Positions 2,286-34,780 of a stretch of 64,000 nucleotides of DNA are shown in pieces. The translations under genes and the position numbers were made by a program. Source of the stretch: an uncultured Schlesneria sp. (GTDB lineage Bacteria; Planctomycetota; Planctomycetia; Planctomycetales; Planctomycetaceae). How positions within the stretch are numbered: the first letter of the stretch is position 1; each line of letters begins with the position of its first letter. The notes below the pieces were generated by a model. That model did not search any database. It saw only the letters and a list, made by a program, of their open reading frames with translations, and was not told where the DNA came from. The stretch lies in NCBI GenBank assembly GCA_903871875.1, contig CAIQIR010000158.1:62001-126000 (forward strand). Reading direction: 5' to 3'.

Positions 2286-5200
2286 ATGCGCCGCAGAACT
2301 ATGCGATTTATCAACTCGCACCGATCCACGTCGTTGCTCTGTTTGTTCGTACTTGCAGGAGCTGCCGAAATACGTGTGTGGGGGGCCTGGCCACATCGGC
2401 AGCAATCGAACATTCAGAAATTGGCCGGCTGCATTGATAAGGTCGAAACGCAAATTGAACAGTACGGATCCGTCGTCCCGAAGCAGCCGGACATCTGGGG
2501 CCAGGCGCGGTTGTCCAAATACCGGCAGATGGTTGAAACGCAGCTGCTGAATCAACAAGGCGCGTTTCAGGAAACGATCAATGCGACGATTTCGCGTAGC
2601 GATCAAGCCAGCTTTGTGAATTCGATGGCACTACAAGCGGCGATCAGCGGTCCTCAATCGATTATCACGCGACGAGGTGGGTCGACGGTCGTCAATAATA
2701 CTCCGGCCGCGACCACGCCGGCGTCTTCGACGACATCGACCACGACGTCAACTTCGACAACGCCCGCGACCAGCCCCACACCGATTGCGATTCCGAATGC
2801 GCCGGACAATTCCGCCGCGATCAGCTCCGTCGCCTTTACGACCACCAATGCGAACAATCAAAAATTGCTGCCGTTCACGAATGGTTCGGGTGTCGCCATT
2901 GAACCGGTGTTGATGCTGGATCAGTTAACGACTTATTTAAATCATCTGAATCAGCTCCGCCGGACCAATGAAGGTGACGACACGGCCGACGCACCCGGTT
3001 ACGCACTGCACCTGGTGCGGATCCCGGTCTCACTGAATCCGGGCAAAAAGACTCGGCAAGGCTACGGTGCCGAGATCACCTTCACTGCCGAACCCGTGAT
3101 CAATGATAATTTGCTGCCCAAGGTCTTTAAGAGCCTGATCACGAATGACGTTTTGGATATGACGACCGCCGTAATGCAGGACTTGGTTGCCAACCCAATG
3201 CCATCAGGCACCCCACAAGTGGTGGACAGAAATCCGCTAATGGGGGATAGAGAGCTGCTAATGGTGGACAGAAACTCGATTGATATCCGGCGGAATGATG
3301 GCGTCATCGCAGACCCGGGGCAGGGTGACGACAACGCCGATCTTGCCCAAGAATTCTCATTGACGTTACCAAGTCCAAAGAATGCGGACTCCCCACCAAA
3401 GAAACCAGACCCCGCGCCAAAGAAATCGGACCGTGGGGCAGATGTAATGCGAGGTCTTTTTGAGGCCCCCGCAGGGCCCGGTGGAGTGGCCTCATCCGTC
3501 GTCAACATTAGCGACGTCTTCAGCGATACGATGCTGGCCGCACTGGGTGCGATTGTTGACGCGAACAAAAAGACTCCTGGCTTCAAGGCGGAGTTGATTC
3601 TCGACTTGCAAAAACTGGCCGAACGCCACACGGCGAAAGCCTATTCGCTCTTGTCCGCACCCGACAATCAGGATCTGTGGGAAACCTATGCCACGGCCGA
3701 TTTGATGAAGTTCATTCGAAACAATGATCAGCAATCGGTGGGTCAACTGCGGGATCAATTCGTCGTTTCTCTCGGTGAGAAATCGAACAAAACTCTGACG
3801 GAGTCAAATGCGGTCACCGCTTTTGCCTGGGCGATCATCTATAACGCGACCACTTTGAACCAGCGATTGATCGACGACATTGCTGTCGTACTCGATTCCA
3901 ACGGGACAGCCTGTCAGGTTGCTGGCGGCTGGTATCCCTACCACTATCCGCATCCTCCCCAGGACGCCTGTGCGGTGTTCGCCGATTATGTTCGAGCTCG
4001 CTGGCCGGTCCATGTGTTTGCCATTGATCCTTCGACGACAGACCAGAATGTCGCCGACACCTATAGCCAGCGTCGCGATATGCAGCTGTCCCTGTCCCTC
4101 GCCTTTACGTCGGGGCAAATTAGCGCTCAGAATTTCACTCGCTACGCCCGACGCCTGGAACTGGATATGGAAACGGTGGCTCTCAACCGGACCCAGGTCG
4201 GCTTCTCGCATGGCAGCGATACGTTTGGATGGCGATTTTATCCACGGGTTCAGTCACCTCCGACCGAAGGCAACGCCACGGTGCTGTTCCGTGATTTGCT
4301 CTGCGGCGGCCCCAGTCGAGATGCGGCACTCAAAAAGATGATGCTCGAACCGGGGCAGCGCGAATGCGTCGCCCTGGTGATCATGCCGTCGTTCGTGCCT
4401 TACGTGCGAATTGACAGCCGCACCAATTGGTTCAAGCTTTCCAATCCCAAAGCGAAGGAATTCGATCTGAAGGACTCGGTCGGCATCGGCTGCGATATTA
4501 AGTGCTTGCGCGATTGTGCCTACTGCTGTCAGAACGATGCCAGTTGCCGTGGCGAAGACATGTCGCTGCTGATGCGCAGCGTGGATCAGCTCGAACATCG
4601 CTTGCCGTTGCAAACCTGCCAGGCTCAAGTCCCTTACGAATTGACGTTGCCAGGACGTTCGTTGTTCAGTCACGGCGTCAGTGACCTGGTTCCTCGTCTC
4701 CGCGGCTATTACGGCGAGCCGGGGGCCAACGGCAAGGCGTTCAATGTCGTGCTGTTGGGTGAGCACTTCAGCGCTCTCGACACGAAAGTCATCGCCGGGA
4801 ACCAGCTGCTGCTCGCCACGTCTGATCCGACGACGAACCAGGTCACACAACTCAGTCGACAGGTCATGGTCATTCAGGTTCCTGCCGGCGCCTTCGCAGA
4901 CGGTAACACGATCGACGTGCATGTTGCGACGCCGTACGGAATCAGCAATCACCTGGCGATCAGTATCCCCGCAACAAAACCCGCCCCGACGACTGCGCAG
5001 GCAGCGACCTGTACTTACAAATTGATTCCCACAACCGCTGCCGCGATTCCTGGAGTCCCGGCCGCCGTGGCGCCTGCGGTGAACTATGCCTGCATTTCCT
5101 ATACGCCGGCGATCTCGGTGCCGTACTCGTCGACGACGACGGCCGGACTGCAGACTCTCGATATCACCTACAAAATCAACGACATCACGATTGTCTCCAC

Positions 5201-5453
5201 GGCGAGGGTGATTGCGGGAACATCGAATTGGTCAGTGAATGTCCTCGATGTGGGGCAGCAATTGCTGAATCAGTTGAATAGCACCCACCGGATTGATCCC
5301 AGCTCGCCACCCGAACAAAGCACCTACACGCTGACACCGATTTCCGTCAGCGATAACGGGGCCCAAGTGAAGGTCGATGGGCAATTGGTGATTTCGTTTA
5401 AACCGATTCCCACATCGTCCCCACCAGCGACGCCTCCGGTTCCTGCCATTTGA
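2286..5453 (+). CDS. large secreted protein of unknown function (1055 aa)
   Basis: The ATG at 2286 is preferred over upstream in-frame codons because AAGGAAG lies about eight bases before it and a signal peptide follows (basic MRRRTMRF, then a hydrophobic stretch around residues 13-26). A low-complexity Thr/Ser/Ala/Pro linker lies at about residues 136-176. A segment beginning at about residue 200 (VLMLDQLTTYLNHL, then HLVRIPVSLNPGKK) resembles planctomycete secreted proteins I have seen only as hypothetical. Residues about 312-330 hold a short repeat built on VDRNxL/MVDRN, and about 369-383 a Pro/Lys-rich linker. Around residues 734-755 six Cys cluster (CDIKC, C, CC, C), suggesting disulfides or a metal site. 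A TIG/Ig-like stretch (VVLLGEHFSALDTKVI) begins at about residue 820. No catalytic motif was recognised. It probably acts outside the cytoplasm as a structural or adhesive protein. Confidence 0.8.
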   Translation: MRRRTMRFINSHRSTSLLCLFVLAGAAEIRVWGAWPHRQQSNIQKLAGCIDKVETQIEQYGSVVPKQPDIWGQARLSKYRQMVETQLLNQQGAFQETINATISRSDQASFVNSMALQAAISGPQSIITRRGGSTVVNNTPAATTPASSTTSTTTSTSTTPATSPTPIAIPNAPDNSAAISSVAFTTTNANNQKLLPFTNGSGVAIEPVLMLDQLTTYLNHLNQLRRTNEGDDTADAPGYALHLVRIPVSLNPGKKTRQGYGAEITFTAEPVINDNLLPKVFKSLITNDVLDMTTAVMQDLVANPMPSGTPQVVDRNPLMGDRELLMVDRNSIDIRRNDGVIADPGQGDDNADLAQEFSLTLPSPKNADSPPKKPDPAPKKSDRGADVMRGLFEAPAGPGGVASSVVNISDVFSDTMLAALGAIVDANKKTPGFKAELILDLQKLAERHTAKAYSLLSAPDNQDLWETYATADLMKFIRNNDQQSVGQLRDQFVVSLGEKSNKTLTESNAVTAFAWAIIYNATTLNQRLIDDIAVVLDSNGTACQVAGGWYPYHYPHPPQDACAVFADYVRARWPVHVFAIDPSTTDQNVADTYSQRRDMQLSLSLAFTSGQISAQNFTRYARRLELDMETVALNRTQVGFSHGSDTFGWRFYPRVQSPPTEGNATVLFRDLLCGGPSRDAALKKMMLEPGQRECVALVIMPSFVPYVRIDSRTNWFKLSNPKAKEFDLKDSVGIGCDIKCLRDCAYCCQNDASCRGEDMSLLMRSVDQLEHRLPLQTCQAQVPYELTLPGRSLFSHGVSDLVPRLRGYYGEPGANGKAFNVVLLGEHFSALDTKVIAGNQLLLATSDPTTNQVTQLSRQVMVIQVPAGAFADGNTIDVHVATPYGISNHLAISIPATKPAPTTAQAATCTYKLIPTTAAAIPGVPAAVAPAVNYACISYTPAISVPYSSTTTAGLQTLDITYKINDITIVSTARVIAGTSNWSVNVLDVGQQLLNQLNSTHRIDPSSPPEQSTYTLTPISVSDNGAQVKVDGQLVISFKPIPTSSPPATPPVPAI

Positions 5454-5524
5454 GGTGCGAGATCGATCAGAACAAAGTGGTTCATCCCCTCCCGGACCAC
5501 AGAGGCTTGAGAGGATGAGGGAAC

Positions 5525-7258
5525 TTATGCCGGCTGAACATCGAAGAAACGAGAAACGCGTTCTTCCGAGGGAGGGGTGGTCAGCAGGCTGGTTCCAATA
5601 CCGGCGACCGTCGATGCGAAAAGGCTCCAGACGATGGGGTCGATCCCGAACACATAATAGGGGCGAAACATCACCGCGATGCCAATCTGTGGATCGGGCC
5701 CCAACAGGTTCAGGACCGACTGAGCAAATTGATTGTCGGGGGCAGTGATCGCCCAGTTTTGCAGCCAGCCTGCCAATGACAATCCGAAGTAACAGGAGAA
5801 TCCAACCAACATGCCGGCCAGCATGCCGGCTGCAGTGGTTCGTCGCCAGTAACAGGCCATCAGCACGGGGACGGTAAACGACGCGCCGCCTGCGGAACTG
5901 CTCAGGACCACCAATGCTTGCAGATATTTGGGCGGATCGAGGTTCGCCAGGACCGCGATCAAACCGACCCCGACCATCGAGATGTTCGTGGCGCGTCGCA
6001 CCTGGGCTTCGGTCGCCTGAGGATGGATGCAGCGGACGTAGATGTCCTGGACCAGTCCCGATGAAATCACGAGGATGAAACAACTGACCGAAGCCATGAT
6101 GGCTCCGAAAGGAGCAGCCAGAATCAACCCGCTCAGAAAGGCACCAAAGGGCAAGCCTTCCGTGACCAGCATCGACATTCGCGGAATCACTTCATCCGGC
6201 TTGTCGAGATGAGGCAACATCGTCCGGGCGGCGATGCAGGTCATGACCAGCGGAATGTAGATCAGGCAATTATAAAAGCTCAGTAGACAGATCGACTTTC
6301 GCATCACTTCGGTGCTTTGTGCGGCCATCACCCGCACCAGCCCCGCAGGCGATACGAAGCCGCCGAAAATCCAGATGAAGAACATCGACAGGGCCAGGCC
6401 CGGTGTCAGGAACTGACGTCCGTCGACGTTGTAGCCGGGACCAAACGCGATATCCGCCGTGGTGTGTTTGATCGCCGTCTGTGTGGCCTGTTCCATTCCA
6501 CCGGCCATGGGTACGGCCAGACAGACAAGGATCATGACGCCGATCACCATCATCACGCTTTGAAACAGGTCGGTCCAAACCGACGCGAGAAAGCCGCCGA
6601 TCAGGGTGTAACCGACGACGGTCACCGTGAAGACGACCAGTCCCACATAGTATTTGCGGTCGATCGGCTTCTTCGACACTGCCGTTGGAGTGGCCGACGC
6701 GGTCTCTTTTGACGCGGCTTGAGCCGCAGGCATTTCTTCAAATTCTTCGGACAATGCCAGCACGCCCGATCCGGGCCAGGCATGTTTCATGATGGTGGCA
6801 CCCGCTTTGAATTGGGCGAACATCGTGAACGACAGAAAGGTGATGATCATGATCGATGAGACCAGACCGACTCGCGCGTCACCGAATCGTTCCCGTAATA
6901 AATCCGGCACGGTGAACGAATCGGTCAGACGACTGAGATGGGCCATCCGTTTGCCGACGACGGCAAAACTCATCAGGGGGACGACCATGTAGCTACCAAT
7001 CCAGAGCAGCACGATCCAGCCATGGCTGTAGACCAGGGCGGGGTATCCCATAAACGTCCCACCGCTTTGCACCGTTGCCGTCAGGGCCAGCGTCCAGGCT
7101 CCCAGGCCTCGATTCCCCAGGAAAAAGCCTTTGAGGAAATCCTTTTTCTCCATCGCCTTCTGTGCCATCGTTCCCAGCCAGACGGACGCGGCGATGAACA
7201 GCAGCAACGCGAACAGGACGCTGTATCCCGGATTCGTGATGTCAGTACCGGCAAGCAT
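5525..7258 (-). CDS. sodium:solute symporter, PanF-like (577 aa)
   Basis: This is a multi-pass membrane protein of the SSS/SLC5 family, which uses the sodium gradient to import small solutes. The N-terminus shows DFLKGFFLGNRGLGAW followed by TATVQSGGTFMGYPALVYSHG, the typical SSS first helices, and about a dozen hydrophobic segments follow. The small gene just upstream is YhdT-like, the same order as yhdT-panF in enterobacteria, so pantothenate is the best substrate guess. The protein is about 90 residues longer than a typical PanF. Much of the excess is a hydrophilic Ala/Glu/Thr-rich loop at about residues 176-205. The start at 7258 has no strong ribosome binding site, and coupling to the upstream gene (90-base gap) is likely. 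Confidence 0.85.
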   Translation of the reverse strand: MLAGTDITNPGYSVLFALLLFIAASVWLGTMAQKAMEKKDFLKGFFLGNRGLGAWTLALTATVQSGGTFMGYPALVYSHGWIVLLWIGSYMVVPLMSFAVVGKRMAHLSRLTDSFTVPDLLRERFGDARVGLVSSIMIITFLSFTMFAQFKAGATIMKHAWPGSGVLALSEEFEEMPAAQAASKETASATPTAVSKKPIDRKYYVGLVVFTVTVVGYTLIGGFLASVWTDLFQSVMMVIGVMILVCLAVPMAGGMEQATQTAIKHTTADIAFGPGYNVDGRQFLTPGLALSMFFIWIFGGFVSPAGLVRVMAAQSTEVMRKSICLLSFYNCLIYIPLVMTCIAARTMLPHLDKPDEVIPRMSMLVTEGLPFGAFLSGLILAAPFGAIMASVSCFILVISSGLVQDIYVRCIHPQATEAQVRRATNISMVGVGLIAVLANLDPPKYLQALVVLSSSAGGASFTVPVLMACYWRRTTAAGMLAGMLVGFSCYFGLSLAGWLQNWAITAPDNQFAQSVLNLLGPDPQIGIAVMFRPYYVFGIDPIVWSLFASTVAGIGTSLLTTPPSEERVSRFFDVQPA

Positions 7259-7348
7259 GAACTTCGATTCCGTAGGCGAGATTTTCGGCAGGGAAAAACG
7301 ACTCCGCGACCCCGGCGTTCGGGGGAGGGATTCACGAGCGATGGTGGC

Positions 7349-7645
7349 TTATTCGTTGACGATTGACGCTTTGCAACCGTCGTCGAGATTTTCGTCGGTC
7401 ATAAAGCAGAAGGCGAACAGGCTGGCGACGATCGTGCAGATGCCCCAGGGCAGCACAATGCCCCAAAAAACCCAGTCAGGAAAGCCCAAGACAAAGGTGA
7501 GGGACTCGGCCGATCGTCCGTACCCATAGGCACTGCAGTAGCCGACTGAATAGGTCGTCGCCATCAACCAGAGGCTGAATGCGGCCAGGGCCTCGCGGCG
7601 GGCCGACTTGAGAAGCGGGTATTCTTTCGTTTCCGTGGCAGTCAT
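7349..7645 (-). CDS. small YhdT-like (DUF997) membrane protein, symporter partner
   Basis: The protein has 98 residues with two hydrophobic segments (about residues 18-40 and 55-80) and a short charged C-terminus. The chosen ATG at 7645 follows GACGAGG at a good distance; a longer frame starting at 7690 would add an unlikely basic leader. Size, topology and position directly upstream of a PanF-like symporter fit the YhdT/DUF997 family, proposed to be an accessory or stabilising subunit of the pantothenate symporter. The two genes run in the same direction 90 bases apart and probably form an operon. Family assignment rests on context and general resemblance, without a signature motif. Confidence 0.65.
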   Translation of the reverse strand: MTATETKEYPLLKSARREALAAFSLWLMATTYSVGYCSAYGYGRSAESLTFVLGFPDWVFWGIVLPWGICTIVASLFAFCFMTDENLDDGCKASIVNE

Positions 7646-7778
7646 CGATACCTCGTCGTTTTGGTGACGCGTTCTTCGAAACCTTATCAATCACCGACAA
7701 CCCGTGTCGCGGGTGCAGGGACCATTCTTTTCAAATGGTGTCGGCAGAAGGGCGAGGCTTCCCTCCGCGGACAGATCG

Positions 7779-8537
7779 TCATTTTTCAACCGGTGTGACT
7801 TCGCTCAATATTCGTTTTTTTTGCGCTCGATGGGACCACCATTCCCAAGCAATCGGTAGTACAGAGATTCCCACAATGGCCAGTACGACCAGCTCAAAAT
7901 TCTTCTTGATGAACTCCAGTTGCCCGAATGCATAGCCAGCGTAAAGAATCGGGACGACCCACGCGATGGCGCCAACGACGTTGTACGTCAAGAATTTCCA
8001 ATAACTCATAGATCCGATTCCGGCGACGAACGGGGCAAACGTGCGGACGATCGGGACGAATCGCGCGATGATGATGGTCTTGCCACCGTACTTTTCGAAA
8101 TACGCATGCGTCTTGTCGAGATGGGCCTTCTTCAAGAAAGGGATCTTGCCACTGAAGGCATGTTCGCCAATCCAATGACCGATTCCATAATTGACAGTAT
8201 CGCCCAAGATTGCCGCCACGATCAGCAACGGCAGCAGCCATTCGATCCGCAACGAATTGTCGGCGGCAAACGCGCCGGCGGCAAACAGCAACGAGTCACC
8301 CGGAAGAAACGGTGTGACCACCAATCCGGTTTCACAGAAGATCACCGCGAACAAAATCAAGTGCGTCCAAACGCCGTAGTCTTTGATCAGTTCCTTCAAC
8401 TGGTCATCCAAGTGAAGCAGCAAATCGAGCCACCACTTGAATGTTCCTGGCCCTCCTGCGGCCTCGGCAAAAAGGAAGTTCGAAGTCAACGCGTCAAAGA
8501 GACCAGGCATCGAAACGGCATCGATCAGGTGCAACAT
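7779..8537 (-). CDS. DedA/SNARE-associated family membrane protein
   Basis: This polytopic inner-membrane protein has about 252 residues. It carries the family marks: ETGLVVTPFLPGDSLLFAAG in the first half, GDTVNYGIGHWIG after it, and the FVPIVRTFAPFVAGIGSM segment with its conserved Arg and Gly residues. DedA proteins are lipid scramblases or flippases, for example of undecaprenyl phosphate or phosphatidylethanolamine, and affect envelope integrity and membrane potential. ATG 8537 is chosen because the preceding AAGGACGA is well placed; ATG 8570 would add 11 residues. It stands alone on the minus strand between two transporter genes. Confidence 0.88.
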   Translation of the reverse strand: MLHLIDAVSMPGLFDALTSNFLFAEAAGGPGTFKWWLDLLLHLDDQLKELIKDYGVWTHLILFAVIFCETGLVVTPFLPGDSLLFAAGAFAADNSLRIEWLLPLLIVAAILGDTVNYGIGHWIGEHAFSGKIPFLKKAHLDKTHAYFEKYGGKTIIIARFVPIVRTFAPFVAGIGSMSYWKFLTYNVVGAIAWVVPILYAGYAFGQLEFIKKNFELVVLAIVGISVLPIAWEWWSHRAQKKRILSEVTPVEK

Positions 8538-8600
8538 TATGGCAGATTCGTCCTTGATGAATGGGCTCAATCAGGTGTGTGGGCGTTTGCGCGGAAAGGA

Positions 8601-10352
8601 TCAGGTGTGGAACCAGGTGATGTAATGTTTGTCTTGAAACGTGGCGAGCATCGAAATCACCGCCATGAATGTAAAGTAAAAGCCTCCAAAAGCGAGTACG
8701 GCCACCCGAAATTTGGGTGGCTGTAATTCCGAAGGAAGCAGCGCTTTGTTGATGAAGATCACATGGACGCAGCTAAAACCCAGCGCGTAGTTGTAAATGA
8801 TCGTCGACCAAACAAGCAGTTCTGTCGAATTCACAAACAGCAGCATCCACAATCCGACGGATGCATAAACGACAAGTACCGAGAAGTACAGTTTGCTGAT
8901 GTGCTTTGTTTCCCATTGTCTCAGTGCCGGTAGTCCAGTCCAAAAGACGTCGATCCATCGTCTGAGCACTCCGTCAGCGGTGGACGCCATACTGGTTCCC
9001 AAAACCAGCACACCACAAAACAGCGTGGTGAACCAGACCAGGTAATTGGGCCACGGACGTTGTGACGCTTTTACGCCCAGCAGCATGTTCTTTTCGTCGG
9101 CCGTTTCGGTGAGACCGGTGTCGACTTTGCCCGTCACCGTTTCGGCGACGCCATTGGCGGTCATCGCGGCCGCGAGATATTTCTGGCTGTCCTTCAGGGG
9201 TTTGTCTTTCGGAAGGAATTGCACCGACAGCATGCTCGGCAGTGCCAGCCCAATGAAGCAAGCGGGCATCCAGACCCAGAATTGTTCACGAGAAACATGT
9301 CGCACCCATTGTTTCCACCGCCTTAACGATTCTGCATTAATCGGAAACACCATGCCGACGTGGGATAATTCGAGCGCATGCCCGCCGACGATACTCGGGA
9401 TGCCTCCCACGTGTTTGCCCATCCCCCAACCCTGTTCTCGCGTGAAGGTACTGATGGGAGTGTTGGTCAAGCCACCGTTGCCCGAGATGGCGATCATCGC
9501 GGTCAAAAAGCTAATCCAGGCCAGATCGATTTTCGGCCAACCACGACCTTCAGTCATCGAGAGGAACACGTTGTCGATGTTGTTGTCTCGTACGGAATCG
9601 ACCGCATCAATGACGCCATCGCCGTTCAGATCTCGCAAGCCGACGACGGGAACGTTGCCGACTTTGAAGAAGCCGCTGAAAATCTCGACCCAGGTGTCGG
9701 CGCGAGAATAGAACAAAGCCAGAAACACCAGGAAGCCGCCCACGAAGATCAACTTGAAGGTCATGACGCGTTTAATCGAATCGTAGACCTTTCCGCCGAA
9801 CACCAGTGGCAGCATCACTCCGATGTAGATCATGCAAGACAGCACAAGTTTCAGAAACTTGTGCGACGGATTTTGATCATCAGGAAGTTCTCCCAGCCAA
9901 ATCGCCGAAAGCGGTACCGCGGTACTCGATGCGAGATAGGGCAAGAACGAGCCGCAATCGAGCAGCAGATAGATTGGCAGCCAAAAAATGGGCCCTGGCA
10001 GCGTACGAAACTTGCCCGTGAAAATGGGCTCGCCCGTGTACAGCGTATAGCGGCTGATTTCGACGTTGTAGACCACTTGCACTAGAATACTGATTGCGGC
10101 CAGCCACAGTAGCCCGCCGCCGTAGCGTGAGGTCACCACGGGCCCTGTCAGCCATTCCCCACCCCCGATGGCGGCTGACGCCATGACCAGGCCGGGGCCC
10201 AGCATCGATGTCAGATTCCACCAGGAAAACACGGGCGCTTCGGGAAGCTCGCCACCGTCCCAACGTGGCATCTGCTTTGAGCCCGGATGAGGGGGAAAGC
10301 CTTCCGTGGCCACGTCGGTTTCGTCGGAGGTCGCTTGCATGAACGCTTTCAA
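8601..10352 (-). CDS. Nramp-like metal/proton transporter with inserted EF-hand/dockerin-type loop
   Basis: This is a 583-residue membrane protein with about 11 hydrophobic segments. The first helix reads SMLGPGLVMASAAIGGGEW, comparable to the DPGN-containing helix of Nramp transporters although the DPGN itself is changed to GPGL. It therefore belongs to a divergent Nramp-like group, and its substrate, metal or otherwise, is open. Between two membrane segments, residues 241-252 read DLNGDGVIDAVD, with Asp1, Asn3, Asp5, Gly6, Ile8, Asp9 and Asp12 of a calcium-binding EF-hand or dockerin loop. The hydrophilic N-terminus of about 40 residues is Pro/Gly rich. The start could also be the ATG at 10340. 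No operon partner is evident. Confidence 0.72.
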   Translation of the reverse strand: MKAFMQATSDETDVATEGFPPHPGSKQMPRWDGGELPEAPVFSWWNLTSMLGPGLVMASAAIGGGEWLTGPVVTSRYGGGLLWLAAISILVQVVYNVEISRYTLYTGEPIFTGKFRTLPGPIFWLPIYLLLDCGSFLPYLASSTAVPLSAIWLGELPDDQNPSHKFLKLVLSCMIYIGVMLPLVFGGKVYDSIKRVMTFKLIFVGGFLVFLALFYSRADTWVEIFSGFFKVGNVPVVGLRDLNGDGVIDAVDSVRDNNIDNVFLSMTEGRGWPKIDLAWISFLTAMIAISGNGGLTNTPISTFTREQGWGMGKHVGGIPSIVGGHALELSHVGMVFPINAESLRRWKQWVRHVSREQFWVWMPACFIGLALPSMLSVQFLPKDKPLKDSQKYLAAAMTANGVAETVTGKVDTGLTETADEKNMLLGVKASQRPWPNYLVWFTTLFCGVLVLGTSMASTADGVLRRWIDVFWTGLPALRQWETKHISKLYFSVLVVYASVGLWMLLFVNSTELLVWSTIIYNYALGFSCVHVIFINKALLPSELQPPKFRVAVLAFGGFYFTFMAVISMLATFQDKHYITWFHT

Positions 10353-10739: not shown

Positions 10740-13700
10740 ATGTTGGGGTCCTTGATAATGATCGATGTTTTTTGTGCCGCAGAGCGAGTGACGTTTTCGG
10801 ATCTCCTTGCGGCTGACTCCCGCTTTCGGCGAGGGCCATCCGATCGTGATCCATCCCGGCCCCATCTCAATCGGCAGTGGCGATTTCTCGGCCGCTGCGC
10901 GGTGGTGTTCGTAACGCTGCTGTTGGGCCAGTCGTTACTCTTGCCCGCTCACGCGGATGAAGGTCTGGACGATTACAATCTGGCGATCAGTCTCTTCAAT
11001 CAACAGCGATGGAAGCCGGCCGCCGAACAGTTTCGCACATTCCTCGCCGCCCATGAAAAGCACGAAAAAGCGGCATTGGGACGACTGTATCTTGGGCTGA
11101 CGTTGGGCAAGCTCGATGACTACAAGGCGTCACGCGAAGAACTGTTGAAATTCGCGGAAGCCAATCGTCAAAGTCCCTATATCTCACAAGCGCGCTACCG
11201 GATTGGAGAGTGCAGTTACCTGTTGGATGATCTGCCGAATGCTCGCATCGAGTTAGAAGGTTTCGTGCAGGCCTTTCCGAAGGATTCGATGTGTGAGTAC
11301 GCTTTGCCCTATCTGGGCGATACGGTCCTGCGACTAAAGGATCCGGGGGCGGCGCTGAAGATTTTCGATCGAGCCATCGAACAGTTTCCCACGGGCAAGC
11401 TGATTGACGACGCGAAATTCGGGCGTGCTCGATCCCTGGAAACTCTCAAGCGGTTTGACGACGCGATCGCTCAGTACCGAGAACTGACGACGCAGAAAAA
11501 CGGAGTTCGCGCGGCCGATGCACAGCTGCATCTCGGGGCGAGTTATTTCGAACGAAAGCAGTTCGCGGAAGCGATTCTGGCGTACAACGAATTCACAAAG
11601 GATTTTCCTCAAAGTCCGCTCGTGCCGACGGCGCAGCTGAACGCGGGTTATGCCTATTTTCAGACGGGAAAGTTTGCGGAGGCCGCTCGCCAGTTTGAAC
11701 TGGTGTCCAAAGACAAATCACAAGGGATGACGGCCGCCTATTGGCAGGGACGCAGTTTGAAGTCGCTGGGCGACTATGCAAAAGCGGCGGAAGTTCTGAA
11801 GGTTGCCGCCGCTGGTTCTCAGAAGCATGCCTTGGCGGAAGCGATCATTTTTGAGCAAGCTTTGTGCGAGCGGTACCTGCAACATCCGGTCGAAGCACGC
11901 ACTTATTTTGAGCAGGTGTTGAAGCAGTTTCCGATGGGGGATCTGGCCGATGACAGTCTGCACGCGCTGATCGAAATGTCGATTGAAGCCGGGGATCTAT
12001 CGGAGGCGGAAGAACTGCTGGCTCGTTTTCAGAAGGCATATCCTCAAAGCGGACTTCGACTGCATATTGAAATGTTGAGTGGTCGGCTGGATCTCGCACG
12101 GGCCGGCGTGATGCGACGGGAGAAACAACCGGCTGCGGAACTGACCGCACTTTACGATGATGCAGCACGTCGTTTCGAACAGATCATGACATCGAGTTCC
12201 ATTCCCAGGACTCAGCGGCAGGCTCGCTATTACCTGGCGCTCACCCGACAACTGCAGGACAAACCCAGCGTGGCCCTGGAAGTGATCGCCCCCCTGGTTG
12301 AACAGGCAACTGCTGATGGAGCGAAGAGCGACTTCGTCGATGCTCTGGTTTTGCAGGCCGATTGTTATTATCAGCAGCAGAAATATCCGCTCGCTGCCAT
12401 CTCGGCGGCCAAGTATTTGGAACTGGTTCCCTCGGGCCGACAGGTGGCTCGGGCATTGTTAATCCGGGCGATGTCGGCCGACCAATTGAACGATGCCGCC
12501 GCATTAAATGCCGCGTTGGATCGATTGAAAATCGAATTCGGCGATCATGCGTTGACCTCGCTGACACTCCAGCAATTGGCGGATGCCGCCGAGACTCGAC
12601 AGGATTGGGTCGCCTCGGGCAAATATTATGAGGTGCTGGCCCAAGTTCAGAAGGATCCGGAAAGACAGGCGTATGCGATTCGTGGGTTGGCCCTGTCGCA
12701 GTATAGCCAGCACCTGTATGAGGCGGCGGCCACAACGTTTGGGCGTGTGCCGGCAGAATTCCCGAAACACAGCCTGGTTTCCGAGTGTACCTATTACAGG
12801 GCTGAATGTTTGAAAGAGGCCAAGCAATCCGATCAGGCGCTCGTGCTCTTCAAGCAGCTGTTTGAATCGTTTCCCGACGACAAACCAGTTGCCGGTGGTG
12901 CCGAGACCGAGCCTCCACTCGAGTTCAACTACAAAGCGGGATGGTGGATCGCCAGGATTCTGACCAACCAAAACAAAGTGGTGGAAGCGGACGCCGCTTA
13001 CGAAGCTTTGTTGAAGCGATTCCCCAAACCGAATGATCTGGACAAGCGGCTCTACGAATGGGCGCGACTCAATCATGACAATGATCGATTCGATCAAGCC
13101 GACGTGATCTGGCGACGGCTGGTCAAAGAAGTGCCGCTCAGTCTCATGGCGAATAACGCGAAGTTGCACTTGGCCGAAAGCGATCTGATGGCGGACAAGT
13201 TCGACGATGCCCGACAGACGTTCGAAGAGCTTGCCACGAGCGATAAGAGTGCTGACGACGTCAAAGAGCGTTCACTGTTTCAACTGGTGAGTCTTGCGGT
13301 GGGGCAGCAGCGATGGCCTGATGCTCGTGTGGCGGGCGAGCGTTTGGCGACGCAATTCCCCAAAAGTGTCTATCTGCACTACGTCGCATACGGCCGAGCC
13401 GAAGCCTTGCTGGCCCCAGCCAAGACGAGTGAACAGGATTTGGCGACCGCACGCCAACTGCTGCAATCCCTTCAGGCGGAATCGTCGAACGATGATGTCA
13501 AAAACGAAGAATGGTTTGATCGCGTCTGGGTGTTGCTGGCGGAGTTGAATTTTCGCGAGAAGAAATACGATGAGGTGCTGACCGTGGTGGAAGACCTCAA
13601 GCGACGTAATCCGAGATCCCCTTACGTGTATCAGGCAGAGGAGGTACTGGGCCGCAGCTTCAAGCAGCAGGCGCCTCCCAAATTTGATGAAGCGCGAGCG

Positions 13701-15343: not shown

Positions 15344-16234
15344 TCAGGGGTGAGGCTGTCCAGGATAGAGTTGATACAGAGCGTCTACAGGATTGGCCGC
15401 ATTGAGGGTTCCGTCGGTGACATAGCCCAACAGCTTGGCCTGCATTTTGGCCGCCTGCAGGGAAGAAATGCCGTTCCACGCATTGGCTTGAATTGCGAAG
15501 GCAAAACTTCGGGACTCGACGTGTCCATCGACAAAAGCCACATTGGCGGAATTTGTGTGGCGAAAGTGGGTAGTGGGATAGTTCTGACTGGGCGGCTCCA
15601 GCAGCCAGTTCTCTTTCATGTTGTTGTTAAAGTCGATTTGGGCGCTGTCTGCAAAGGAAATCGTGTTTGAGGTTGTTTGTACATCTCGCAATTGGTGAAA
15701 GTCGGGAACGACCGTGAAACTCGGATAATTCGAGAAATCATAGTTGGTCCCGTAGCCGAGATAGTACCCGTTGTACCCATACCCGCAGGTCATTTTTCCG
15801 TAGGGCAGCGTATCAACCTGGCTGGGGCCAAAACTGGGGCACTGAAAGGCCGAATAGTTCGTTTCCATGTACGGCGCCAGCTGACCTTGGGTGAAGTCGA
15901 ACTGCTTGGTGGGATCGGGTTGATCGTAGTTGACATTCCCCACCCAGAATCGGGCCTGACCCAAGGAGGGATATGCGGTCGCATTGGCCATGAATTTGGC
16001 GTTGTCCAGTTCCCAACACGGCAGAAAGTCGTTGTAGGTTTCCGTGTAGTTGAAGAAGGCTAACCCGAGTTGTTTCAGGTTGTTCTTGCACTGGGTTCTT
16101 CGAGCGGCTTCTCGTGCCTGTTGAACGGCCGGAAGCAGTAACGCGATCAGGACTGCGATGATGGCGATCACGACCAGCAGTTCAATCAGAGTAAAACCCG
16201 GTCGGCGAAGGCGAGGCACAGCAAGGTTCGGCAT
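15344..16234 (-). CDS. DUF1559 prepilin-like protein, first gene behind the cobalamin riboswitch
   Basis: The protein has 296 residues. A type IV prepilin-like N-terminus ([18 protein letters not shown]) is followed by the DUF1559 signature [20 protein letters not shown], and the C-terminal part holds the family's H-x-G-like motif as [20 protein letters not shown]1559 proteins are abundant in planctomycetes and thought to form pseudopilus-like or surface structures. ATG 16234 is preferred over an upstream frame start because GGAGAA lies seven bases ahead of it. The gene follows a cobalamin riboswitch by about 180 bases, so its expression is probably lowered by adenosylcobalamin or a related corrinoid. 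Most DUF1559 genes are not known to be B12-controlled, which makes this copy worth attention. Confidence 0.9.
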
Positions 16235-16251
16235 GACAATTCTCCGTTGTC
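16235..16251 (-). promoter_or_regulatory. small hairpin presenting the DUF1559 ribosome binding site
   Basis: On the minus strand GACAA pairs with TTGTC around a seven-base loop that contains the Shine-Dalgarno GGAGAA, directly before the ATG at 16234. A five-bp stem is weak and may be chance, but this is where an expression platform controlling translation would sit. Confidence 0.35.
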
Positions 16252-16414
16252 GAAAAATCACGCACGAACGAAATCGAGTACAAACGGTTGCTGCATCCGA
16301 TGACTCGATCACTCCGAACGATCGCAGCAGCGATCAGACGAAGGAACCGGACAACGATCCCGCGCAGGCGGGCGAAGAGGCAACGTTTCGTTCGGCGCGA
16401 AGTCGTTGGCGTGC

Positions 16415-16842: not shown

Positions 16843-18156
16843 CTACGACTGGCTGATTTGAGTCGATGACGAACCGGCGACAAGAAGGTTGGCTGCCACA
16901 TCGGTGTCACAATCGACACGGGACGAATCGAAGTGAATTTCGCGACCCAGTCGATAAGCGATGTTACCCAAATGGCAGAGCGTACTGGCGACGTGGCCGG
17001 TCTGCAGATCGGCCGACGGCGTCTGACGCGTCTTCACGCAATCAAGGAAATCCCGCAGATGAGTCGTCTGTAAATCCGACGCATCCGCCGTGACGTTTTC
17101 GCGGTTGTCATAGACTTTCCAACCGCCTCGATCGACGACCAGAGTGCCCAACTCTCCGTGGAACGAAACCCCCGAACTACGCCCTTCCACTCCGTGCGAC
17201 GACCACAGCCGATGTTCCCACAAGATCATCTTGTCTCGAAACGCATATTGCACGGCTAGCGTGTCGGGCGTTTCCTGATCGTCATCGAATGAGTATTTGC
17301 CGCCGACCGCGGAAATACGCGACGGATAATCGACCGACAGGCCCCAACGAGCGATGTCGAGCATATGGACGCCCCAGTGGGCCAGCTCACCACCGCCGTA
17401 ATCCCAGAACCAGCGCCAATTGAAATGGAAGCGGTTCGGATTGAAGTCGCGAGCGGAAGCCGGTCCAAGCCATTGGGCGTAGTCGACGTGCGACGGCGTT
17501 TCGCAATCCAGCTTGCGTCCGATGGTTTTGCGTCGATGCACAATCCATGCTTTGGCCAGATTGACCTTCCCCAGTCGACCGCTTTGCAGCAACTCGATTG
17601 CCGATCGAAAATGGGTACCGCTGCGCTGTTGCAGTCCCACTTGGACGATCCGGCCGGTTCGCTGCGCGATTTGAATCGTCTGCGGCCCTTCGGCGACGAA
17701 GTGCGTCGAGGGACTTTCGACATACACATCTTTCCCCGCCTGGCAGGCCAGGGCCGTCATGGTCGCATGCCAGTGGTCGGGCGTGGCGATGATAACGGCA
17801 TTAATCGTTGGATCGTCGAGCAGCTTGCGGAAATCTCGCTCGATCGAAGGAGCGGAACGTCCCGTTTCTGTCACGGCATGCAGGGCCGGGGCAAACAACG
17901 TTTCATCGACATCGCAAATCGACCGAATGTCGGTATCTGCGAATTTCGCCAGTTCGCCCGCCAGCAGTTTTCCCTGGTTGCGAACGCCGATCACACCCAC
18001 ACCGATCCGGTCATTTGGCGAATGGCCAGACAAAGCACTGGTTGCAGTGGCAGTCAGTCCGACGACTCCAACGGCGACACCTTGTGCGCTACGCCCCAGA
18101 AATTGGCGGCGGCTGACTTCGCGGCGTTTGAGTTCGTCGGTATCCATCTGGGCCAT
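16843..18156 (-). CDS. Tat-exported Gfo/Idh/MocA family oxidoreductase
   Basis: The protein has 437 residues. A twin-arginine signal (SRRQFLG, then a hydrophobic stretch to about residue 45) is followed by a Rossmann fold beginning GVGVIGVRNQGK, with ICDVDE and ATPDHWHATM as family landmarks, and then the C-terminal alpha/beta substrate domain (WRWFWDYGGGELAHWGVHMLDIARW). Family members oxidise or reduce sugars or related compounds with NAD(P). At the place of the usual EKP motif this protein has ESP (DVYVESPS), so the usual Lys is missing. The start at 18156 overlaps the stop of the gene upstream (TAATG), which indicates translational coupling to the HtrA-like gene. Confidence 0.88.
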   Translation of the reverse strand: MAQMDTDELKRREVSRRQFLGRSAQGVAVGVVGLTATATSALSGHSPNDRIGVGVIGVRNQGKLLAGELAKFADTDIRSICDVDETLFAPALHAVTETGRSAPSIERDFRKLLDDPTINAVIIATPDHWHATMTALACQAGKDVYVESPSTHFVAEGPQTIQIAQRTGRIVQVGLQQRSGTHFRSAIELLQSGRLGKVNLAKAWIVHRRKTIGRKLDCETPSHVDYAQWLGPASARDFNPNRFHFNWRWFWDYGGGELAHWGVHMLDIARWGLSVDYPSRISAVGGKYSFDDDQETPDTLAVQYAFRDKMILWEHRLWSSHGVEGRSSGVSFHGELGTLVVDRGGWKVYDNRENVTADASDLQTTHLRDFLDCVKTRQTPSADLQTGHVASTLCHLGNIAYRLGREIHFDSSRVDCDTDVAANLLVAGSSSTQISQS

Positions 18157-20165
18157 TATATCCAATCCAACGAGTCGACCCAACGACCGATTTCCTCAAA
18201 GGTTTCTTCTTCCGGATATTTTGAGCCCGGGCCTTTGAATGAGTCCAAGACGACGGGAAACTTCTGTTTCCGAAGTCCAGCGACTGATGTCTTCACGAAT
18301 CCCAGCAGTTTGTCGGCGTCGCCACAGAGGAAGAAGTACTGTTGACGAAAATCGGGTTCACCCTCTGGTAGCAAGAACACGTACGGAGCTCCCGTGACCA
18401 CGGCACCCCGCACAATATCCCGGTTTTTGTTCATCATTAGCCACACCATGGCAGCCCCGGTCCCGTGCGAGTGCAACACAATGCGTGAACTATCGATCGT
18501 ATACTTTTCACGAATATGACCGATGAGCGCCTTGATGAACTCGGCCTCACCGGGTTGCCATCCGGCCAGTTTTTCGGCCTTCGGAGCGACAAGAATCAGG
18601 CCTCGACGGTCGCAAATCGATTTCCATCGTTTAAAAACATCGGCTTCCATCAAATCACCGAAGGGATGGATCCACACGACCAGACCGTACAGACGTGAAT
18701 CGGAATAGGATTCGGGGACGTACGCCCAGTAATCATGTTCGTGGCCGGCCAGGTTTGCCGTAAATCGGCCCTTTTTGACATCACTCTCTTTTTTCTGATC
18801 GACTTCGGCCTTGGGCGGAGTGGCATCGACGATTGCAGTCGGTTCAATATTTTCGAACCCGGTGATCAGTTCGGTGGGTAACTCGTCGATCACGGTTTCA
18901 GGAGGCAAACCAAGAATTACCTCTGCGGTTGTTTCCTGTCCCTCTCTGACATAGGTCACGCTGGCGTGTTCCTTCGGCTGCGCGCGGCCGACCAGGTCAC
19001 TCAGCGAGCGAGTATCCTTCAGTTCGATGTTGTTGAATTTGGTCAGGCGGTCGCCGCGGATCACACCGATCTTTTCGATCGGACTTTTGGGGAACACGAA
19101 ACGCACTTCCACTCCGCCACCGGTCGATGCGGCTTGCCGCACGGGCAAAATCCCTAAAAAGGGGATCTCATAGGGGATCAGTTGCCCCGCCAGCGACACG
19201 TCCATGGGCAACGATTGGTCGCCGCGCGAGACCACCAGCCTGACGGAGTCTCCGGCATATTTTCGGCCCAGCACATGTTTGAGCTGTGCTACACGTGCGA
19301 TCTTTTCGCCATCGGCCTCGACGATGCGGTCATTTGTTTTGAGTCCCGCCTTTTGGGCGGGCGAGTTATAGCGAACGCGATCGATGATGGCCGGGACGTT
19401 CAGCGATTGGCCGCCAGCGAAGGTGATTCCCAGTAACCCTGGCAACAGGTCGGTTCCCTGCTTCAACTTCTCAAGCGAGACATAGATATCTTCCAGCGGG
19501 ATCGCGAAGCCGATTCCACCGTCATACCACTCGACGCCGGCCATCTCGCCTCCACCGGAGGGCGATAAGGGGGCAATCACACCCAACGTCCGTCCCTCGA
19601 TGTCGATCAACGCTCCGCCGTAGTTCACCGGTGACGTTTTGGCATCGGTTTGAATGGCTTTTCCCCAGACGCGATTCAAGGCGCTCACGATGCCGACCGA
19701 CAGGCTGGGGGTCGTGTTGTCGAGCGTGCGTCCCAGCGCCACGGCCCACTGGCCGACTTTGATTTGATCGCGTGGAACCGGTTTCGCAGGGGTCAGTCCG
19801 TCGGCGTCGACTTTCAATAGCGTCAGGAATCGCAGCTGATCGTCGGCGATGTGCCGTGCGGGCAATCGACGTCCGTCGGACAATGTGACGAGGATCGATG
19901 CCGGTTTCGAGACGAAATTGAACGAACTCGAGATGATGAATCCATCTGTCGAGACCACAACACCCGTAGTGGGGCCGGTTCCCAATAGCACGTCGTCCAA
20001 TCGTTCAAGCCCACCCACCGTTTCAATGCGAACGACCGAAGGATCTGCCAGGGCGGCTGCTTGTTTGAAGGCCTGTTCTTCCAGAGCCTCAAGCTTGCCA
20101 TCCACGGCGATTGCGGTCGAAGTCATTGCCCACCCGCACGCGATCAAAATCGTCAGCAATCGCAT
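18156..20165 (-). CDS. HtrA-like pseudoprotease with two PDZ domains fused to an alpha/beta-hydrolase domain
   Basis: The protein has 669 residues with a signal peptide (residues 1-20, ending STAIA). Residues about 40-230 align by eye with the HtrA trypsin-like domain. However, the positions expected for His, Asp and Ser hold Phe82 (SSSFNFV), Phe113 (RFLTLLKVD) and Tyr182 (VNYGGALID where active HtrA has GNSGGPL). Two PDZ domains follow, at about 240-330 (SPAQKAGLKTNDRIVEADG) and 345-440 (SPIEKIGVIRGDRLTKFNN). Residues about 485-669 resemble an esterase/hydrolase with a possible nucleophile in HSHGTG. The start at 20165 is chosen for the signal peptide and because a longer frame would run into purF. 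It lies 11 bases after purF and overlaps the next gene. Probable role: periplasmic binding or sensing platform with a separate hydrolase activity. Confidence 0.8.
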   Translation of the reverse strand: MRLLTILIACGWAMTSTAIAVDGKLEALEEQAFKQAAALADPSVVRIETVGGLERLDDVLLGTGPTTGVVVSTDGFIISSSFNFVSKPASILVTLSDGRRLPARHIADDQLRFLTLLKVDADGLTPAKPVPRDQIKVGQWAVALGRTLDNTTPSLSVGIVSALNRVWGKAIQTDAKTSPVNYGGALIDIEGRTLGVIAPLSPSGGGEMAGVEWYDGGIGFAIPLEDIYVSLEKLKQGTDLLPGLLGITFAGGQSLNVPAIIDRVRYNSPAQKAGLKTNDRIVEADGEKIARVAQLKHVLGRKYAGDSVRLVVSRGDQSLPMDVSLAGQLIPYEIPFLGILPVRQAASTGGGVEVRFVFPKSPIEKIGVIRGDRLTKFNNIELKDTRSLSDLVGRAQPKEHASVTYVREGQETTAEVILGLPPETVIDELPTELITGFENIEPTAIVDATPPKAEVDQKKESDVKKGRFTANLAGHEHDYWAYVPESYSDSRLYGLVVWIHPFGDLMEADVFKRWKSICDRRGLILVAPKAEKLAGWQPGEAEFIKALIGHIREKYTIDSSRIVLHSHGTGAAMVWLMMNKNRDIVRGAVVTGAPYVFLLPEGEPDFRQQYFFLCGDADKLLGFVKTSVAGLRKQKFPVVLDSFKGPGSKYPEEETFEEIGRWVDSLDWI

Positions 20166-33826: not shown

Positions 33827-34780
33827 TCATTCAGCAGGAGCAGTCTTCGTTTTACGGCGTGGGGGATCCAGATAGCGAAAACCGGTATTCGGGTTATTTC
33901 GGTCGAACGCGAATGCTTCGTGATTGTCGAGAAACAACTTTACGTAGGGTGACGGGATGGCGAATCCCAGTCCCTCGGCGAACAACAATTTCATATTTGT
34001 CACGCCGATCACTTCGCCTCGAGCATTGAACAACGGTCCCCCGCTGTTGCCCGGATTGATTTCGGCGGTCGTTTGGATATAGACCTGTCCGCGAAAATTG
34101 CGGTTTTTCGTACCGATGATCCCCTGCGAGACAGATCGTTCCAGTCCCAGAGGGTTCCCGATGGCGAAAACCTCTTCACCTTCCTGCAAATCTTCTTCGG
34201 CCGCCAGAAAGACTGGTTTGAACGCCAGGTCCTTCTGCACCGGAATCTGCAACAACGCCAAATCGAAAAAGGGATTCAATGCCACGATGCGAACGTCGTC
34301 GATTCTGCGACGATTGAATGATCCGTCTTCACCTCGATGAAAGATCGTGGTGGCGATTCGCGTTTCTTTCTCGATCACGTGATAGTTCGTCACGCAAAAG
34401 CCATTTTCGCTGACGATAAATCCCGAACCCAGTCCGCCAGGCGTTTGAACCAGGACGACGCCTTCGCCAAACTTTTCGGTCAGATCTTTAATACTTCGTC
34501 GGGGCAGTTGCGCGGTGCGGTAAAGTTGATGTTTTTGGACTTGGGTCGGCGAATTGGCCGAGTCTTTAGCGGCGACGCGAGACTTGATCTGATTGAGCGG
34601 CACCTTGACCACATCGATGCCGATGTCGACATACAGCAGGTCCGCTTGTTGTTTCAGAACATCGCCCTCGAGCTTATGTCCCGTTTTCAGTTCGATGACA
34701 TCCGCGTTCGTCGACGTCAATCCTAAAATGCCAAACGCAAATAGGGGCGCGAGTGGCAGGTAGCGTCGTGGAAATCTCAT
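33827..34780 (-). CDS. secreted trypsin-like serine protease without PDZ domain
   Basis: The protein has 317 residues. Residues 1-26 form a signal peptide (cleavage near STNA). Residues about 27-65 are a small beta-rich segment ([17 protein letters not shown]), common in planctomycete proteins. The protease domain spans about 95-300 with the full HtrA-type triad: His134 (TNYHVI), Asp173 (FFDLALL) and Ser246 (GNSGGPL). No PDZ domain follows; a short basic/Pro tail closes the protein. It lies just downstream of the cytochrome c'-like gene on the same strand. It contrasts with the inactive HtrA-like protein at 18156-20165. Confidence 0.9.

Follow-up and report, generated by a model that had tools for sequence, protein, structure and literature searches.

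A planctomycetal HtrA-type pseudoprotease conserved without its catalytic triad and encoded in a trio with one intact and one inactivated HtrA paralogue

Why would bacteria keep the fold of an HtrA protease after every catalytic residue has been replaced? The question is raised by a gene lying in a stretch of 64,000 nucleotides from an uncultured Schlesneria sp. (Planctomycetota; GenBank assembly GCA_903871875.1, contig CAIQIR010000158.1, positions 62,001 to 126,000 of the forward strand), which we refer to as the window. This gene and its 669-aa product are called C, the partner HtrA genes found beside it at other loci are called A and B, and L and G numbers stand for loci and genomes. An initial annotation had singled out C as an HtrA-like protein with Phe82, Phe113 and Tyr182 in place of the triad, followed by two PDZ domains and an esterase-like domain. 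We report that the triad is lost throughout the family of C. The larger finding is a trio in which C is accompanied by A, whose triad is intact, and by B, a second pseudoprotease; the initial annotation missed both partners because they lie outside the window.

The protease fold and the lost triad

Alignment of C with E. coli MG1655 DegS placed Phe82 opposite His96, Phe113 opposite Asp126 and Tyr182 opposite Ser201, in agreement to the residue with the initial annotation. Phe84, suggested for the His position by reading from the right-hand anchor, was rejected in favour of Phe82 once DegS, DegQ and 150 other rows were aligned; whichever of the two is taken, it is not His. Misplacement of the catalytic residues was rejected on this alignment. 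The fold is nevertheless kept, together with both annotated PDZ domains. Indeed, Pfam matched Trypsin_2 to residues 67-196 (70 bits) and PDZ_2 to two stretches, and no transporter was among the seven families hit. The AlphaFold2 model had a mean predicted local distance difference test score (pLDDT) of 91.0 and a predicted template modelling score of 0.84. The 50 matches listed by Foldseek were all HtrA-family structures, DegQ 4ynn and DegP 3otp being among the first, and model residues 31-328 superposed on 2z9i/1y8t with Z 27.9 and a root-mean-square deviation (rmsd) of 3.8 over 271 aligned residues (VIA-align). The score against the Do-family model TIGR02037 was 172.9 bits, under the curated NCBIfam cutoff of 416.2. 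C therefore has the trypsin-like fold and PDZ domains of the HtrA/Do family but lacks its His-Asp-Ser triad. It is probably exported, as judged by eye from its signal-like N-terminus.

Of the 127 proteins in the family alignment, 109 were kept as distinct and full-length, and a wider set held 161 distinct domains; domains were scored as C at 200 bits or more, and one locus (L059) yielded no usable open reading frame (ORF). Tyr182 was found in 109/109 and Phe82 in 105/109 full-length proteins. In the wider set, the His position carried F (146), W (6), Y (4), L (2), E (2) or A (1), the Asp position M (79), K (19), L (15), G (14), R (14) or others, and the Ser position Tyr (160) or Val (1). Hence none of the 161 domains had His, Asp or Ser at the matching triad position, and the window gene is not a lone decayed copy among triad-bearing homologues. 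Conservation of the Phe/Phe/Tyr set held for Phe82 and Tyr182, which are family features, but not for Phe113: position 113 was never Asp, and Phe occurred there in the window protein alone (1/90; 1/161).

At E≤1e-60, C was matched in 139 of 150 family genomes, in 118/119 good genomes and in 58/58 genera. An order-wide draw gave 119/120 and 113/113, its genomes all belonging to the same family and most having been sampled already. Outside the class, 24 genomes matched, and 18 of the 20 that were fetched hold a C gene, all 18 reading NYGG. Three of the 62 genomes retrieved at E≤1e-60 were not counted as having C: G337, where the match was an A-like gene, G395, where it was an ordinary HtrA, and G447, set aside with its sequence unread because its score resembles that of G395.

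We then compared constraint along the protein. Columns at least 90% identical across the 109 sequences numbered 56/214 in the protease domain, 11/90 in PDZ1, 3/95 in PDZ2 and 4/204 in the C-terminal domain. Among 10 same-genus sequences, the median ratios of nonsynonymous to synonymous substitution rates (dN/dS) were 0.066, 0.077, 0.198 and 0.101, respectively, calculated from those of the 45 pairs in which dS was not saturated (28, 20, 31 and 21). The pseudoprotease domain was thus the most constrained part of C. With the fold kept and the triad lost throughout the orthologous group, C qualifies by sequence and structure as an HtrA-type pseudoprotease, which supports a non-catalytic role for its protease-fold domain, as the initial annotation had proposed.

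The C-terminal domain had been annotated as esterase-like on account of its HSHGTG motif, and it was suggested that the fusion may direct a hydrolase to damaged or specific envelope substrates. The motif (residues 565-570) and the fold were both recovered. Modelled alone (pLDDT 88.4), the domain adopted an alpha/beta-hydrolase fold whose best match was LC-Est1C (3wyd; Z 22.1, rmsd 2.2, 184 aligned), with esterases of the feruloyl and polyhydroxybutyrate (PHB) type close behind. Similarity to esterases and PHB depolymerases spanned residues 475-595 at 40.6 bits, below the cutoff of 150. However, the 3wyd elbow GHSMGG aligned in the profile alignment to S566-H-G-T-G-A of the window protein, and the nucleophile column is therefore Gly568, not Ser566; in the model, Gly568 stands at the start of the helix after a strand. 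The His segment of the domain contains no His. Unlike these esterases, whose fold it shares, the window protein lacks the set of GxSxG nucleophile, Asp and His, and its hydrolase domain is, by these residues, dead. A working hydrolase was accordingly rejected for this copy.

Among 90 distinct relatives, nearly all of the same family, Ser occupied the nucleophile column in 11, and Ser, Asp and the segment His occurred together in eight (L023, L029, L033, L034, L037, L038, L041 and L064), so the hydrolase may be active in a few lineages. Of thirty further rows, four belonged to the family, one of them with Ser (L238), and the 26 from other families all lacked it. Mapped on a tree built from the remaining domains, the Ser/non-Ser state requires at least seven changes and the full Ser/Asp/His set at least four. 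Outside the class, the open frames of C were often just 340-465 aa, and thus too short for the C-terminal hydrolase domain.

Partner genes A and B

What accompanies C? There were 161 distinct C loci, 123 of them with at least 2.8 kb upstream, and in 87 of these 123 A and B lay directly upstream on the same strand. A (~600 aa) had an intact triad, with His in 83/83, Asp in 86/86 and Ser in 86/86 of the rows bearing a letter at the position (87 rows). B (~350-390 aa) had His in 1/102, Asp in 50/102 and Ser in 1/103. In five loci (L209, L214, L217, L218 and L221), A and B formed one continuous ORF. On a tree of 150 domains, made by a quick method with support from the SH-like approximate likelihood ratio test (SH-aLRT) only, A, B, C and the ordinary HtrAs each fell on one side of one starred branch (99, 99, 95 and 97).

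G337 carried three adjacent HtrAs on the minus strand (L246, G337:C181, ORFs 5040-6542, 6347-7513 and 7444-8610). One grouped with A (98) and another with C (97), while the last formed a long unplaced branch. The C-like one had lost only the His and kept Asp and Ser. This resembles an early stage, with the trio already in existence before C lost its whole triad, and makes the gene a possible intermediate. Separately, we noticed that G263 carries two A-B-C trios (L230 and L237), the second without a C-terminal domain and grouping with L211 from outside the class.

To compare the distribution of B and C, we searched one set of 248 genomes of the class with the alignment of each, presence being taken at E≤1e-60 and counted by eye. 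Both genes were present in 208 genomes and both absent in 38, with B alone in G284 and C alone in G113. The double absences comprised 32 genomes of family f2 together with G163, G167, G248, G291, G298 and G318. A was searched in 19 chosen genomes: nine had it (E≤1e-170, including G284 and G113), and the 10 in which it was missing (best match 1e-61 or weaker) were those scored without B and C. In G167, a single-contig genome, none of A, B and C was found. Collectively, gene order and co-occurrence, not function, pair C with an active HtrA.

An NPCBM-domain gene was matched in 71/87 A-B-C loci, directly upstream of A in most. Where flanks were longer (L267, with L238, L268, L269 and L270), the order was MoxR ATPase, DUF58, BatA/VWA, two or three large genes, a 359-aa protein, the NPCBM protein, A, B and C; this long conserved order was noted for L267-L270 with L238-L248. 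This arrangement points to the cell envelope and names no substrate. A BacA gene followed the trio in 7/87 loci.

A proposed regulatory subunit and other readings

HtrA proteases are trimers in which one subunit helps to switch on its neighbour. Since C travels with an intact A and an inactivated B, a mixed protease complex is suggested, with dead copies controlling the live one. The residues of the activation cluster bear on this idea. In DegS, Arg178 of the L3 loop contacts the LD loop of the next subunit (Pro161, Tyr162 and Leu164), together with Thr167 and Gln191 (consulted parts of PMC11642142). In 40 sampled loci, A had the Arg and the Gln in 40 each, the Pro in 40 and the Leu in 37. C had the Arg and the Gln in 40 each, the Pro in one and the Leu in three, and B the Arg in six, the Gln in none, the Pro in two and the Leu in five; ordinary HtrAs had both Arg and Gln in 27/27. 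C thus keeps Arg and Gln, mostly without Pro and Leu, as expected if it activates a neighbour but needs no activation itself.

We consider it slightly better than an even bet that C serves, without catalysis of its own, as a regulatory subunit in a mixed A/B/C HtrA trimer with one active site. A would be the blade of such trimers, and C the switch, sensing something via its PDZ and pseudohydrolase domains. Arg165 and Gln172 of C, at the DegS R178 and Q191 positions, would stabilise the active state of A, the aromatic pair Phe82/Tyr182 would fill the former active site of C, and B would be a silent, perhaps substrate-holding, neighbour. More tentatively, and somewhat short of an even chance, Planctomycetota may have an HtrA that is obligately hetero-oligomeric and built from three paralogues dedicated to it, a catalytic one and a pair of pseudoproteases, with C as a trans-acting allosteric switch bearing a pseudo-esterase sensor. 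Neither a printed HtrA trio nor a mixed HtrA was found in a literature search covering few subscription papers, or in the consulted parts of PMC6411480.

Several points weigh against a regulatory role within a mixed trimer. A and B are not next to C in 36/123 loci, the window included. R178 and Q191 may have been retained for folding alone, and export, contact between the subunits, the direction in which activation runs, the filling of the old site by aromatics and the sensed signal are all inferred. As to co-occurrence, 32 of the 38 double absences belong to family f2 and make up one evolutionary unit, and incomplete assemblies can miss neighbouring genes together. G284 has A and B, C not being found there; in G113, which has C, B reached 1.1e-58, just short of the threshold; and in G298 (1420 contigs), scored as lacking both, a fragment was matched by the C-terminal portion of C. 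Lastly, in the closest precedent, MamO and MamE, physical contact was not detected, according to the consulted parts of PMC4794232.

That precedent deserves attention. MamO is a dead HtrA needed for proteolysis by MamE, and pairs of pseudo- and active HtrAs arose three times in magnetotactic bacteria (parts of PMC4794232). MamO and C share an HtrA-type domain, a degenerate triad and the pairing with an active HtrA, which for MamE is a dependence and for C is genetic. In MamO, Thr stands at the nucleophile position while His and Asp remain (H116, D149, T225), and a TauE-like transporter domain is present. Unlike MamO, C has lost all three triad residues and bears two PDZ domains and a pseudohydrolase, and its trio includes two dead partners. 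With DegS, DegP and DegQ, C shares the trypsin fold, PDZ and the DegS R178 and Q191 positions, but differs in having no catalytic residues, a TIGR02037 score below cutoff and an extra C-terminal domain. Arabidopsis Deg5 and Deg8 are likewise specialised HtrA paralogues, and protease activity of Deg5 was undetected; unlike C, both keep the triad residues, and they were solved as separate oligomers (as far as the consulted parts of PMC3640471 go).

The separation of C from A and B in 36 loci would also suit an independent envelope chaperone or scaffold, that is, a homo-oligomer binding via its PDZ domains and pseudohydrolase and merely co-inherited with A and B. That C still has both PDZ domains and a binding fold derived from an enzyme fits this possibility, as does the variability of PDZ2 and the C-terminal part, since ligand-binding parts may vary most. 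Yet the presence of B and C agrees in 246/248 genomes, A and B are fused in places, and R178/Q191 are retained in C and not in B. We regard this explanation as unlikely, though it keeps appreciable weight.

The MoxR, DUF58 and BatA/VWA genes preceding the trio in several loci recall the MoxR-vWA ternary systems, in which dead trypsin domains occur as inactive effectors near MoxR and VWA genes (parts of PMC7159879). C could then be a decoy of an anti-invader conflict system, its dead trypsin blocking active counterparts or invader proteins. However, the local MoxR matched AAA_3 (215 bits) far above bpMoxR (47 bits). Moreover, such effectors are variable and the system patchy (PMC7159879, same parts), whereas C, with its HtrA-type PDZ, is conserved, slowly evolving and near-universal in its family. 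A decoy role is improbable.

Slightly less probable again is that C is still catalytic. The invariance of Tyr182 and the Ser, Asp and segment His of eight relatives would favour activity in one domain or the other, but Tyr182 has no His or Asp partner, and in the window protein the hydrolase offers Gly and a segment devoid of His. A metal-binding pseudoprotease is a shade more doubtful still: metal binding by a dead HtrA domain is exemplified by MamO (parts of PMC4794232), but none of the columns that are invariant across the C alignment is His. Finally, although catalytic residues have been lost in two domains, a lone, decayed and functionless gene is virtually untenable and was rejected, given the family-wide triad loss, the low dN/dS of the protease domain (0.066, 28/45 pairs usable) and the presence of C in 118/119 good family genomes.

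The window, its genome and what the trio would mean

Coordinates of C and its parts are collected in Table 1.

Table 1. Features of gene C, in positions of the window
Feature	Position	Strand	Basis or remark
Gene C (pseudo-HtrA, two PDZ, pseudo-alpha/beta-hydrolase)	18156..20165	-	669 aa; stop codon 18156-18158
Signal-peptide-like N-terminus, residues 1-21	20103..20165	-	by eye; model helix at 2-43
HtrA-type trypsin-fold domain without catalytic triad, residues 27-240	19446..20087	-	Pfam, structure, DegS alignment
Phe82 codon, catalytic His position (DegS H96)	19920..19922	-	F in 105/109
Phe113 codon, catalytic Asp position (DegS D126)	19827..19829	-	Asp in 0/161
Tyr182 codon, nucleophilic Ser position (DegS S201), motif SPxNYGG	19620..19622	-	Tyr in 109/109, 160/161
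Arg165 codon, DegS R178 position (activation cluster, L3 loop)	19671..19673	-	Arg in 40/40 sampled C
Gln172 codon, DegS Q191 position (activation cluster)	19650..19652	-	Gln in 40/40 sampled C
PDZ1, residues 244-325	19191..19436	-	Pfam
PDZ2, residues ~334-417	18915..19166	-	second PDZ_2 stretch; limits from model secondary structure
Variable linker, residues 426-465	18771..18890	-	low model confidence around 443-456
Alpha/beta-hydrolase-fold domain, residues 466-669, pseudo-esterase in window protein	18159..18770	-	profile alignment, model, structure match
Gly568 codon, hydrolase nucleophile position	18462..18464	-	Ser in 11/90; 0/26 outside family

In the window, C starts 10 bases past the purF stop and is followed by a Gfo/Idh-type oxidoreductase gene. 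A and B of the same genome lie on another contig (C72, L266), where they overlap by 4 bases (A ends at 11482, B starts at 11479), and its BatA homologue is on a third contig. In L045, recorded as Schlesneria paludicola, A-B-C are still together; in the related records L042-L044, L050 and L053, A and B were not seen beside C. No conserved purF neighbourhood emerged, the window PurF having no tblastn match in the 36 loci with a separate C, and a Gfo/Idh relative was matched in 4/36. Elsewhere in the window, on the minus strand, we noticed another short trypsin-like HtrA relative at ~33980-34435 (320-aa frame) and, at 15344-16312, a protein with a prepilin-like N-terminus, which we take to be of the DUF1559 type, a kind presumably common in planctomycetes. 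The terms HtrA, PDZ and DegP did not appear in a term search of the main text of the P. limnophila essential-gene paper, as far as it was available (PMC10632474).

HtrA proteases are known chiefly as homotrimers, and neighbour activation in them is hard to dissect because the subunits are all alike. If our reading of C as a regulatory subunit is correct, a trio with one live and two dead members, just one of the dead having retained the trans-activating Arg, would set the donor of activation apart from the acceptor. Labour inside such an HtrA trimer would be divided in a fixed way among its subunits. The trio would also constitute an envelope proteolysis system in 208 of 248 sampled class genomes, as counted from B and C, and the cell biology of this phylum is still poorly known.

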